The notes below the pieces were generated by a model. It saw only the letters and a list, made by a program, of their open reading frames with translations. It did not search any database and had not been told where the DNA came from. Positions 5,326 to 42,473 of a stretch of DNA of 59,367 nt are shown here, in pieces. This stretch comes from Betaproteobacteria bacterium (GTDB lineage: Bacteria; Pseudomonadota; Gammaproteobacteria; Burkholderiales; Nitrosomonadaceae). A program made the translations under genes and the position numbers. The stretch is taken from contig SMXG01000025.1 in assembly GCA_004356775.1 (NCBI GenBank), forward strand, positions 1 to 59,367, written 5' to 3'. Every line of letters starts with the position of its first letter. Positions within the stretch are counted from its first letter, which is position 1.

Positions 5326-6033
5326 TTATTCCTGAGCCTCACGTTCGATTTCCTCGATACCCACATGACGTACATCTTTGCCCTTGACCAAGTAGATCAC
5401 ATATTCAGACATGTTCTTTGCGTGATCACCGATGCGCTCAATGGCTTTTGCTGCAAACAGAATTTCTATCGAAGAAGAAATATTGCGTGGATCTTCCATC
5501 ATGAAAGTGATAAGCTGGCGAATTATGGAACGGAACTCTTCGTCTACTAGTTCGTCTTGACGGGCAACCCAAACTGCTTCTGCTAAATCAAGACGGGCGA
5601 AAGCATCCAGAGATCTTCGCAGCATTTCCATTGCGATATTCGCGACATGTCTAATCTCGACAAAACGTGGCTTATGTATTCGGCCATCGGCATATATTAG
5701 CTTCGCCATACGTGCAATCTTTGCCGCCTCATCTCCCATACGCTCAAGATCGGTAATAATCTTAATTACCATTATGATCATGCGTAAATCACTAGCAGTG
5801 GGTTGCCGGCGTGCAATGATCTGGCTGCAAATTTCATCAATCGATACTTCCATATCATTAACACGGTGATCATCAGCCACAACCTGCTCAATCAAAGCTT
5901 TATCAGCAGTGGTAAGTGCCTTAACTGCATGCTCGATCTGCTCTTCAACCAATCCGCCCATTTGCAGTACACTCATCCGCAACGACTCAAGATCGGCATC
6001 AAATTGTTTGGATATGTGTTTTCTATTGACCAT
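5326..6033 (-). CDS. phoU: Phosphate signalling complex protein PhoU
   Basis: A 235-residue, all-helical protein made of two tandem PhoU repeats. The conserved metal-binding stretches are visible: MGGLVEEQIEHA in the first repeat and ERIGDHAKNMSEY in the second, with DLERMGDEA between them. PhoU links the PstSCAB phosphate transporter to the PhoR/PhoB two-component system and damps the Pho response when phosphate is plentiful. Here phoU is not next to pst genes; its neighbours are rpiA and a hypothetical. The start at 6033 is supported by AAGG seven bases upstream. Confidence 0.94.
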   Translation of the reverse strand: MVNRKHISKQFDADLESLRMSVLQMGGLVEEQIEHAVKALTTADKALIEQVVADDHRVNDMEVSIDEICSQIIARRQPTASDLRMIIMVIKIITDLERMGDEAAKIARMAKLIYADGRIHKPRFVEIRHVANIAMEMLRRSLDAFARLDLAEAVWVARQDELVDEEFRSIIRQLITFMMEDPRNISSSIEILFAAKAIERIGDHAKNMSEYVIYLVKGKDVRHVGIEEIEREAQE

Positions 6034-6109
6034 TTCAAACCTTTAAATTTCTCTGAAAAAATTATATTTATAATATCTGTAGATTATGACAATTTTGTTA
6101 TTGCTCGAG

Positions 6110-24793: not shown

Positions 24794-25729
24794 ATGCATA
24801 TCTCGGTTTTGCTGCATGAGGCAGTGGATGCGCTGGAAATTAAACCAGACGGAATTTACGTAGACGGTACTTTTGGTTATGGCGGCCACAGCCGCTTGAT
24901 ATTAGAAAGGTTGGGAAAAGATGGCAGGCTGATTGCATTTGACAGGGATCTATCCGCTGTAACTGAGGGACGGACTGTCGAGGATGCCTGTTTTCATATT
25001 GTACATAGCAGATTTTCTCGAATACAGCAAGAGCTGCAGAAGTTGGGAGTGAGTCGGGTGGATGGGGTATTGCTAGACTTGGGGGTGTCTTCACCACAAC
25101 TTGAAGAAGCATCGCGAGGATTCAGTTTCCGCCTAAATGGGCCACTTGATATGCGCATGGATACGAGCCAGGGGCAGACTGCTACAGAATGGATTGCTTC
25201 TGTTTCTGAAGATCATTTGAAAGAGGTGATAAAAAACTATGGGGAAGAACGATTTGCTAAACAAATCGCAAGAGCAGTTGTAGCGACAAGATCGCGGCAG
25301 CCTATCGTTACCACACTTCAACTTGCCGAGATCGTGGCAACGGCCGTACGCTCACGTAAGCAAAATCATAATCCGGCGACGCGCACTTTTCAGGCCATAC
25401 GGATTTATCTCAATCAGGAGCTTGATGAGTTGTCGCTGAGCTTGCCTCAATGTGTGGAGCTATTGAACCCACGTGGGCGGCTGGTAATCATTAGCTTTCA
25501 CTCACTAGAGGACCGGTTAGTTAAGCGTTTTATGCGCGCAGTAGCAAACCCCGACATGTTGCCTCGCAGATTACCAATACGGAACAAAGAAATGCGGTGT
25601 CTTAGCAGTCATAAACTACGATTAGTTGGGAAGGCAGTACGTCCTAGAGAAAACGAGGTAGCTGTTAATCCACGGGCTAGAAGTGCAGTGATGCGGGTAG
25701 CAGAACGGGTAGAACCCGGTGGTTTTTAG
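24794..25729 (+). CDS. rsmH: 16S rRNA (cytosine1402-N4)-methyltransferase
   Basis: SAM-dependent enzyme that methylates N4 of C1402 in the ribosomal P site (formerly MraW). The 311-residue protein opens with HISVLLHEAVDAL, has the SAM loop VDGTFGYGGHS at about 23-33, and the family motifs DLGVSSPQ and FHSLEDR. The length is standard. No strong ribosome site precedes the ATG, so translation may depend on mraZ read-through or on the structure of the 21-bp spacer. Confidence 0.95.
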   Translation: MHISVLLHEAVDALEIKPDGIYVDGTFGYGGHSRLILERLGKDGRLIAFDRDLSAVTEGRTVEDACFHIVHSRFSRIQQELQKLGVSRVDGVLLDLGVSSPQLEEASRGFSFRLNGPLDMRMDTSQGQTATEWIASVSEDHLKEVIKNYGEERFAKQIARAVVATRSRQPIVTTLQLAEIVATAVRSRKQNHNPATRTFQAIRIYLNQELDELSLSLPQCVELLNPRGRLVIISFHSLEDRLVKRFMRAVANPDMLPRRLPIRNKEMRCLSSHKLRLVGKAVRPRENEVAVNPRARSAVMRVAERVEPGGF

Positions 25730-25770
25730 ATTCGAGTAAATCTCTGTTGCTTTTAAGAGGAGAGAAGGCG

Positions 25771-25875
25771 ATGAAACAAAGAGCACAAGAAGTATTACTA
25801 GTTTTGGTTATCGCTATCATTAGTGTAACAGCCGCGCTTTTTATTGCACAAACTAGTAAATCTTGGTGGTTATAG
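25771..25875 (+). CDS. 34-residue single-pass membrane peptide between rsmH and ftsL
   Basis: A short frame starting MKQRAQEVLLV. It has a very good ribosome site (GAGGAGAG with the ATG about nine bases on), a positively charged start, one hydrophobic helix of about 20 residues, and a WW pair before the stop. It is 41 bp after rsmH and ends 30 bp before the preferred ftsL start, in the same direction. I recognise no family. It is too short for domain evidence, but the ribosome site and the clean membrane-peptide design favour a real gene. Confidence 0.5.
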   Translation: MKQRAQEVLLVLVIAIISVTAALFIAQTSKSWWL

Positions 25876-25905
25876 GGGTTTATGACATGGTTAATAGGAG
25901 CTGAA

Positions 25906-26211
25906 GTGACCAGATTGAACATTCTTCTGACCCTGATCGTCATCGCCTGTGCGTTGAGTGTTGTGACTTCACATCACAAAGTACGCAAGCTTTTTATGGA
26001 ACTGGAAAAAAAGCAGGAACGAACAAGACAACTGGCAGTAGAGTGGGGGCAGTTGCAGCTTGAACAAAGCACTTGGGCGATGCGCGCACGTGTTGAAAAA
26101 ATTGCTACCAAGCAGTTGCTTATGAGAGTTCCAGATGTATCACAAATTCAAGTTATCTCATTAACAGGCCCCAACATTTCAATTAGTTCTGTGGATGAGC
26201 AAGAATTATGA
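25906..26211 (+). CDS. ftsL: Cell division protein FtsL
   Basis: Bitopic divisome protein that with FtsB and FtsQ relays the activation signal to FtsI/FtsW. The product (101 residues from the GTG) has a short cytoplasmic start MTRLN, a membrane helix at about 4-22, and a coiled-coil periplasmic part (KLFMELEKKQERTRQLAVEWGQ). I choose the GTG at 25906 because AGGAG lies five bases before it and the family starts this way. An ATG at 25882 gives 109 residues. Its last bases overlap ftsI by ATGA. Confidence 0.9.
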   Translation: MTRLNILLTLIVIACALSVVTSHHKVRKLFMELEKKQERTRQLAVEWGQLQLEQSTWAMRARVEKIATKQLLMRVPDVSQIQVISLTGPNISISSVDEQEL

Positions 26212-41309: not shown

Positions 41310-42473
41310 ATGTTCGAAATCATGGATACACAAAACCAGGAAGCAGTTATAAAAGTTATTGGTATCGGCGGCTGTGGTGGTAATGCAGTGGACCACATGA
41401 TCCAGAACGGGGTGCAAGGTGTTGAGTTCATTAGTGCCAATACTGATGCACAAGCGTTAAAGCGTAATCAAGCCCGCATCCTGTTGCAATTGGGATCTAC
41501 TATTACTAAGGGGTTAGGTGCGGGAGCAGATCCTGAAGTCGGGCGCGAGGCTGCACTGGAAGATCGTGATCGTATTGCTGAGTTGATTGAGGGTGCAGAC
41601 ATGCTGTTTATCACTGCTGGCTTGGGGGGTGGTACCGGTACTGGTGCTGCACCAGTGGTAGCGCAGGTAGCAAAGGAAATGGGCGTTCTAACCGTGGCAG
41701 TTGTGACAAAGCCGTTCGCATTTGAGGGCAGGCGCCTGAAAGCAGCACAGTCCGGACTGGAAGAATTGTCACAGCATGTGGATTCGTTAATCGTGATTCC
41801 GAATGATAAACTGATGTTAGTCTTGGGGGATGATGTCAGCATGCTAGATGCATTCAAGGCAGCAAACAACATACTCTATGGCGCAGTTGCAGGGATTTCA
41901 GAGGTCATCAACTGCCCAGGACTTGTTAATGTAGATTTTGCTGATGTTAAAACCGTGATGTCGGAAATGGGTATGGCCATGATGGGATCTGCATTTTCCA
42001 CAGGGGTAGATCGTGCGCGCCTGTCGGCAGAACAAGCAGTTGCAAGTCCTCTGCTGGAGGATGTGAATCTCTCAGGCGCACGTGGTGTGTTGGTAAACAT
42101 TACTGCCAGTTCAGGACTGAAAATGCGCGAAGTCCACGAGGTGATGAATACAATTAAGGATTTTACCGCTGAAGATGCCACCGTGATTATTGGTACTGTG
42201 ATCGAAGAAGACATGCAAAACGACTTACGTGTCACAGTAGTGGCAACTGGGCTTGGTGGATTGGTCAATAGTTCTCAGCCTCGGCCATTAAGTGTTATTC
42301 ATACTCGTACCGGAACTGACAACGCTTTGTCAGAGGATACGGTGAATTGGAGGGAACTCGAGATTCCTGCTGTAAGTCGTACGAACAGACGTGATGCAAC
42401 AGTGGAAGCAATGAAACAATCTGGCGTGGAGACGCTGGATATCCCGGCATTCTTAAGGAGGCAGGCCGACTAA
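41310..42473 (+). CDS. ftsZ: Cell division GTPase FtsZ
   Basis: Tubulin-like GTPase that forms the Z ring. The ATG at 41310 has an excellent AAAGGAG site; a longer frame from 41259 lacks one. The protein has 387 residues with the GTP loop GGGTGTG at about 107-113, NTDAQAL, and the T7 loop NVDFADVK. The C-terminal peptide TLDIPAFLRRQAD is the docking site for FtsA and other partners. It is the last gene of the cluster; lpxC, which often follows ftsZ, is not here. Confidence 0.97.
   Translation: MFEIMDTQNQEAVIKVIGIGGCGGNAVDHMIQNGVQGVEFISANTDAQALKRNQARILLQLGSTITKGLGAGADPEVGREAALEDRDRIAELIEGADMLFITAGLGGGTGTGAAPVVAQVAKEMGVLTVAVVTKPFAFEGRRLKAAQSGLEELSQHVDSLIVIPNDKLMLVLGDDVSMLDAFKAANNILYGAVAGISEVINCPGLVNVDFADVKTVMSEMGMAMMGSAFSTGVDRARLSAEQAVASPLLEDVNLSGARGVLVNITASSGLKMREVHEVMNTIKDFTAEDATVIIGTVIEEDMQNDLRVTVVATGLGGLVNSSQPRPLSVIHTRTGTDNALSEDTVNWRELEIPAVSRTNRRDATVEAMKQSGVETLDIPAFLRRQAD

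Follow-up and report, generated by a model that had tools for sequence, protein, structure and literature searches.

A predicted 34-codon membrane frame between rsmH and ftsL in a Nitrosomonadaceae division cluster is most likely a lineage-specific partial gene duplicate

The dcw cluster of a Nitrosomonadaceae bacterium, a relative of known ammonia oxidisers, contains between rsmH and ftsL a 34-codon frame that is probably translated and probably represents a lineage-specific, weakly constrained partial duplicate of a longer gene located elsewhere in the same genome, without a proven role in division. Its product would most likely be a small, single-helix membrane protein peculiar to this lineage. 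The frame is read as a partial duplicate because a paralogue is present in the same three genomes that carry the frame, and because the homology between the two extends, at the level of DNA, through the leader and the ribosome site. Coordinates below refer to the window, by which is meant the whole stretch of 59,367 nucleotides that was analysed, and its relevant features are the following:

25723-25850, plus strand: DNA also present in the 5' part of a small membrane gene that lies on contig C25 of the window's own genome (G000), 82% identity over 128 bases
25727-25729, plus strand: stop codon of rsmH, lying at the 5' border of that block (sequence and six-copy alignment)
25753-25770, plus strand: ribosome-binding site and spacer of the frame, aagaggagagaaggcg, near-identical in genome G016 and in the G000 paralogue
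25771-25875, plus strand: 34-codon frame with a single predicted membrane helix (residues about 8-26); counterparts of 33 codons in genome G020 and 26 codons in G016
25851-25875, plus strand: tail of the frame, unmatched in the paralogue and comprising roughly residues 27-34 (QTSKSWWL) plus the stop; the DNA match stops at 25850
25906-26211, plus strand: ftsL, probably starting at a GTG that has a site of its own, aataggagctgaa; a 109-aa frame here matches the FtsL models of Pfam (E 1.6e-22) and NCBIfam (TIGR02209, E 1.3e-24)

The first-pass annotation had described a short frame with one membrane helix and one of the best ribosome sites of the cluster at this position, and that description is accurate in each respect. 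The frame opens with the ATG at 25771 and closes with the TAG ending at 25875, exactly the coordinates and the 34 codons claimed, and the window sequence gives a 34-residue product, MKQRAQEVLLVLVIAIISVTAALFIAQTSKSWWL. Among 12 start contexts of the dcw cluster that were compared, the TTTTAAGAGGAGAGAAGGCG-ATG of the frame is one of the best; nothing like it precedes rsmH, ftsI or mraY, for example, and good sites are also present at ftsZ, ftsL and mraZ. The most hydrophobic 19-residue segment of the product reaches a Kyte-Doolittle mean of 3.08.

When the three known dcw frames, those of G000, G016 and G020, were combined into a profile, each of these genomes yielded one additional strong match (E 7e-17 to 1e-12), on contigs C25, C112 and C94, respectively. 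All three paralogues share a common locus between an O-methyltransferase gene, matched in 118 of 125 family genomes, and a small lipoprotein gene; none of the genes seen beside the paralogue at the three loci is a division gene. The paralogues are 51 (G000), 65 and 65 codons long, the G000 gene as assembled (L051, about 5930-6084, minus strand) differing from those of G016 and G020 by a single base in an A-run that leaves it with 51 rather than 65 codons. A profile of all six copies returns the window frame with E 5.8e-20 and the paralogue with E 1.3e-32, values that are in part matches by construction. A full-sensitivity profile search of 194 loci and the window, which took in 30 methyltransferase loci (L165-L194), yielded no additional copy, the next best match having an E value of 0.004 among places picked as weak matches; whole genomes were covered separately with the six-copy profile. 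Upstream of the paralogue, outside the copied block, a perfect palindrome that we take to be CRP-type ends 177-186 bases before the start codon in all three genomes, where 0.00-0.04 would be expected by chance per locus:

L051 6271-6286; L052 4794-4809; L053 4591-4606: TGTGA-N6-TCACA palindrome upstream of the paralogue

The DNA shared by the two loci has well-defined borders. With a query beginning at 25723, the window block aligns with positions 8366-8493 of C25 in G000 (E 9.8e-31), and the same borders were recovered with a 701-base paralogue region as query. The block begins four bases ahead of the rsmH stop and extends into codon 27 of the frame, with the ribosome site inside it, and so covers the gene-proximal leader, that site and the entire helix, excluding the tail of the paralogue; in G020, the match covers a shorter part of the leader. 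Since the soluble tail of the paralogue (HSVQSE...KDT...) is missing from all three dcw copies, these are referred to as partial copies. The ribosome site of the dcw copy is fully kept in G000 and G016 and altered in G020.

As to the codons beyond the block, those for QTSKSWWL may have originated in junction and old spacer sequence. Seven alignments were tried: the tail region shows a weak match to the G012 spacer in G000 (P 0.05) and G016 (P 0.02) and none in G020 (P 0.61), and the G016 tail region has 12 identical bases in common with a spacer of genus g2 (P 0.001; G020, P 0.45). These matches would lend weak support, absent in G020, to the survival of old spacer sequence behind the copy. 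Two other origins were rejected: the tail is not a repeat of the rsmH end (P 0.06, 0.99 and 0.20 in the three genomes), and the block is not a high-copy repeat element in the genus, where it occupies two places per genome.

The course of events that would best account for this arrangement begins with the copying of some 128 bp at the paralogue's 5' end, comprising the end of the leader, the ribosome site and the first 26 codons with the whole helix, to the rsmH stop, before the three lineages split. The copied frame, having lost the soluble tail of its parent, would then run through junction sequence to a stop. It is presumably transcribed with the division operon, given that scans for sigma-70-like promoters around the frame found none in G000, G016 or G020. 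From its inherited ribosome site, it would yield a small N-in single-helix inner-membrane peptide. As a redundant second version of the parent's helix, this peptide is probably tolerated, at best weakly kept, and not required by the division apparatus. Dispensability is suggested by the G016 copy, which stops after codon 26 and whose terminal branch has an omega no different from 1 (P 0.18-0.54). At the rsmH end in G000, a weak terminator-like hairpin (25706-25718) consists of a 5-pair stem followed by GTGGTTTTTA, with 0.2 such hairpins expected by chance, and could lower read-through into the frame; the scans of G016 and G020 showed none at that place.

Copying most likely went from the longer gene to the division cluster, because the cluster copy has no tail and occupies a spacer that is short in the relatives read. 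The reverse direction is possible, because other genomes show no copy at either place. That both copies occupy the same two places in three genomes points to a single event before the split of the three lineages, and the event was not recent, since the neighbouring genes of the three dcw copies differ at 21-53% of four-fold sites. A species tree of rsmH and ftsI groups the three frame-bearing genomes with weak support (57). For the gene tree of the six copies, none of four topologies is rejected by the AU test. The tree that scores best on the coding part places both G000 copies together, a pairing that would fit later conversion.

The distribution of the frame among relatives is narrow. The genus was sampled with eight genomes (G000, G004, G008, G012, G016, G020, G024 and G028), and rsmH was located in seven of them. 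A homologous frame lies between rsmH and ftsL in three of the eight: G000 (34 aa), G020 (33 aa, MKNMVQEILLVLVITVISVTTAFFIAQTSNSLL) and G016, the closest relative, where a 26-aa product, MKNIAQEIFLVLVITVSCVSAALLIA, is followed by a stop at codon 27. The frame is absent from four of the remaining five, namely G004, G008 and G012, with rsmH-ftsL spacers of 27-40 bases, and G028, in which ftsZ occupies the position. In the fifth, G024, whose assembly is 72% complete, rsmH was not located and the profile search gave no convincing match. In the family's other genera, 23 loci were read; none contains the frame, and ftsL starts 5-48 bases behind rsmH. In the relatives read that lack the frame, the spacer at this position is short or, in G028, filled by ftsZ. 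With the window's own copy counted, the frame is present at three of 30 family loci read (L001-L030) and is not a conserved divisome gene.

Wider searches gave the same picture. The first profile, built from the three dcw frames, gave matches in 62 of 125 family genomes with a limit of E 10, and three of these were taken as real; the six-copy profile listed 13 of the 125 at E up to 0.1, with three convincing and the next best at E 0.02-0.08, and 122 of the 125 had no match better than E 0.02. In all family genomes other than G000, G016 and G020, no convincing match to either frame or paralogue was obtained. Across an order-wide sample of 399 genomes, the six-copy profile found only G000 and one match taken as chance (G228, E 0.0043, within a 134-codon frame). 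The distance from the rsmH stop to ftsI was surveyed at 110 loci (30 from the family and 80 named, some genomes being in both sets), 108 of which had ftsI: it is 254-357 bases at 94 loci, 411-420 at four and more than 430 at ten. Five of these ten represent the three frame-bearing genomes and one the ftsZ case. The other four are distant loci (L111, L126, L144 and L154), with distances of 444-504 bases extrapolated from partial FtsI alignments.

Relocation of ftsZ within the dcw cluster is a separate feature of the genus. In G028, ftsZ lies between rsmH and ftsL (L059 5817-7013; SP263), and ftsL and ftsI follow it; in G008, it lies between murF and mraY (L057 11388-12557), and G012 has the same spacing, judged by coordinates only. 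One ftsZ is present in each of the seven of eight genus genomes with an ftsZ match, that of G000 lying behind ftsA at 41310.

Selection was assessed with a codon model over the 26 codons common to the six copies (25 after the start), using three topologies and two frequency models. Jointly, the six copies have an omega of 0.21-0.27, and neutrality is rejected under all topologies and frequency models (P at most 2.6e-5); the copy family is therefore protein-coding. For the dcw copies by themselves, the outcome varies. The G000 and G020 terminal branches together have an omega of 0.21-0.31, with P values of 0.009, 0.019, 0.034 and 0.052 in four fits on two topologies, and P 0.34-0.38 under the third, best-scoring topology; with the single-duplication topology, all dcw branches jointly give an omega of 0.32 (P 0.006). 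Pairwise simulation among the dcw copies gave P 0.025 for G000-G020, and 0.35 and 0.13 for the two pairs that include G016. The G000 branch alone gave P 0.18-0.67, so that the window's own copy is not distinguishable from neutral. Values of dN are higher among the dcw copies (0.17-0.21) than for rsmH (0.05-0.12) or ftsL (0.06-0.13). For murF, the rows with G016 were discarded from the dN comparison; the gene is not broken in that genome, where the stop precedes its real start. The first-pass annotation had proposed checking the substitution pattern and the presence of the frame in relatives, and had held that stops and indels in relatives, or their lack of the frame, would refute its reading. 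Two further genomes of the genus do carry it at the same place, and the copies are constrained as a group; its absence elsewhere and the stop in the closest relative largely dispose of a conserved role, and leave a lineage-specific one standing.

These data bear on several competing readings, the probabilities of which are not mutually exclusive, and an origin by duplication is common to all of them except chance or artefact. The foremost alternative to a translated partial duplicate is a dead relic, neither effectively translated nor selected, and perhaps kept similar to its parent by conversion. The stop at codon 27 in G016, the neutral appearance of the G000 copy alone and the pairing of both G000 copies in the best coding tree would all fit a relic, the last with the qualification that the AU test leaves other trees standing. 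However, the ribosome site has been kept, fully in two genomes and in altered form in G020, over a period that the divergence of the neighbouring genes shows not to be short, and the joint omega of the G000 and G020 branches is low under two of the three topologies. The frame being open over 26 codons in three diverged genomes, that low omega indicates that some function may be kept, and we regard a relic as a serious but doubtful possibility.

A functional modulator of the divisome or septal wall, whose expression from the operon would place the helix beside FtsL, FtsI and FtsW, is unlikely. Such a role is possible, and would rest mainly on position. Among small proteins of bacterial cell division, Blr and MciZ are similar in size to the frame, and SidA and Blr have one helix each. 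MciZ, SidA and Blr are reported as small proteins acting on division (PMC12350097), and SidA, at 29 aa, is linked with FtsW and FtsN (PMC3567139). The 34-residue product resembles these in size; unlike them, with their known division targets, it derives from a partial copy inside the dcw operon and has no known target. It is also like DinQ (27 aa), TisB, MgtR and KdpF, single-helix membrane peptides (PMC3567139), in size and in its hydrophobic helix. The operon position, the frame's own good ribosome site, the intact helix in all three copies and the low joint omega of the G000 and G020 branches would favour a modulator. Against it stand the restriction of the frame to three of eight genus genomes, with nothing else convincing among 125 family genomes, the truncated G016 copy, a protein that changes faster than RsmH or FtsL, the absence of division genes beside the parent, and the lack of significance for G000 alone and for the G000-G020 pair under the third topology. 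The earlier suggestion of a small divisome or cell-wall modulator of the cluster consequently finds no support in a partial duplicate that most relatives lack and that is interrupted in the closest one. A more specific version, distinctly unlikely in our estimation, is that the lineage wired the membrane segment of an orphan protein into its division operon, where the tailless version may act on FtsL, FtsI or FtsW; equally distant is the variant in which it may instead compete with the full-length parent protein. Were this true, it would be a new divisome peptide from partial gene duplication, caught early.

The other role suggested earlier, that of a translational helper for ftsL, fares worse still. 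A leader of this kind, acting through re-initiation at ftsL or through translation that shields the 176-base spacer from termination, is decidedly improbable, even though the frame takes up 105 of the 176 bases that separate the rsmH stop from the ftsL GTG in G000. ftsL is the gene usually found directly behind rsmH, and the frame, itself a short membrane protein behind rsmH, is like it in this; unlike ftsL, the 34-aa frame has no match to the FtsL models (PF04999, TIGR02209), and the true FtsL, which matches them, follows at 25906. The GTG at 25906 is favoured as the ftsL start because its ribosome site is conserved and because it agrees with the start in relatives, the site and start being conserved in G016 and G020; the mechanically called ATG at 25882 is probably not the start. 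Between the end of the frame and this GTG lie 30 (G000), 31 (G020) and 61 (G016) bases. The stop of the frame thus neither touches nor overlaps the ftsL start, and ftsL does not lack a site of its own, as would be expected downstream of a leader peptide. A helper role is unlikely because ftsL retains a GGAG site for itself and because 30 bases separate its start from the end of the frame; the poorly conserved tail sequence argues in the same direction.

That a pure chance frame or a sequencing artefact is involved, as the shortness of the frame might suggest, has a negligible probability and is ruled out by the homologues, namely frames at the same position in two other assemblies and a homologous second gene, and a comparable frame is rare in random spacers. 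In 20,000 simulated spacers of 176 nt each (first-order Markov, window composition), an ATG frame of 25-60 codons was present in 25%; in 0.7% such a frame had a Shine-Dalgarno match, and in 0.01% it had, in addition, a hydrophobic 19-mer with a mean of at least 2.0. Across the whole window, both strands and nested starts included, there are 454 ATG frames of 25-60 codons, and two of them, including that at 25771-25875, combine a Shine-Dalgarno match with a hydrophobic 19-mer.

For the copy family, searches of Pfam, NCBIfam and PHROGs gave no match above cut-off with the frames and paralogues tested (the PHROGs set being without the G016 frame), and plasmid and phage records gave none to the 65-aa G016 paralogue. 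The MHYT model (PF03707) scored 16.3 bits for the frame and 13.7 for the G000 paralogue, below its gathering cut-off of 21. Literature searches returned no paper on small frames in dcw clusters or at the rsmH-ftsL position, or on small proteins of such origin.

The finding carries a caution, in that a short frame in a dcw cluster can look well formed without being a division gene. Further study might gain more from the parent gene, which has an upstream palindrome in each of the three genomes and matches no known family. The arrangement nonetheless illustrates a route by which a small membrane gene could enter a conserved operon, its ribosome site and helix copied from elsewhere in the genome, and if the peptide does act in division, it would represent the young, traceable birth of a divisome component.
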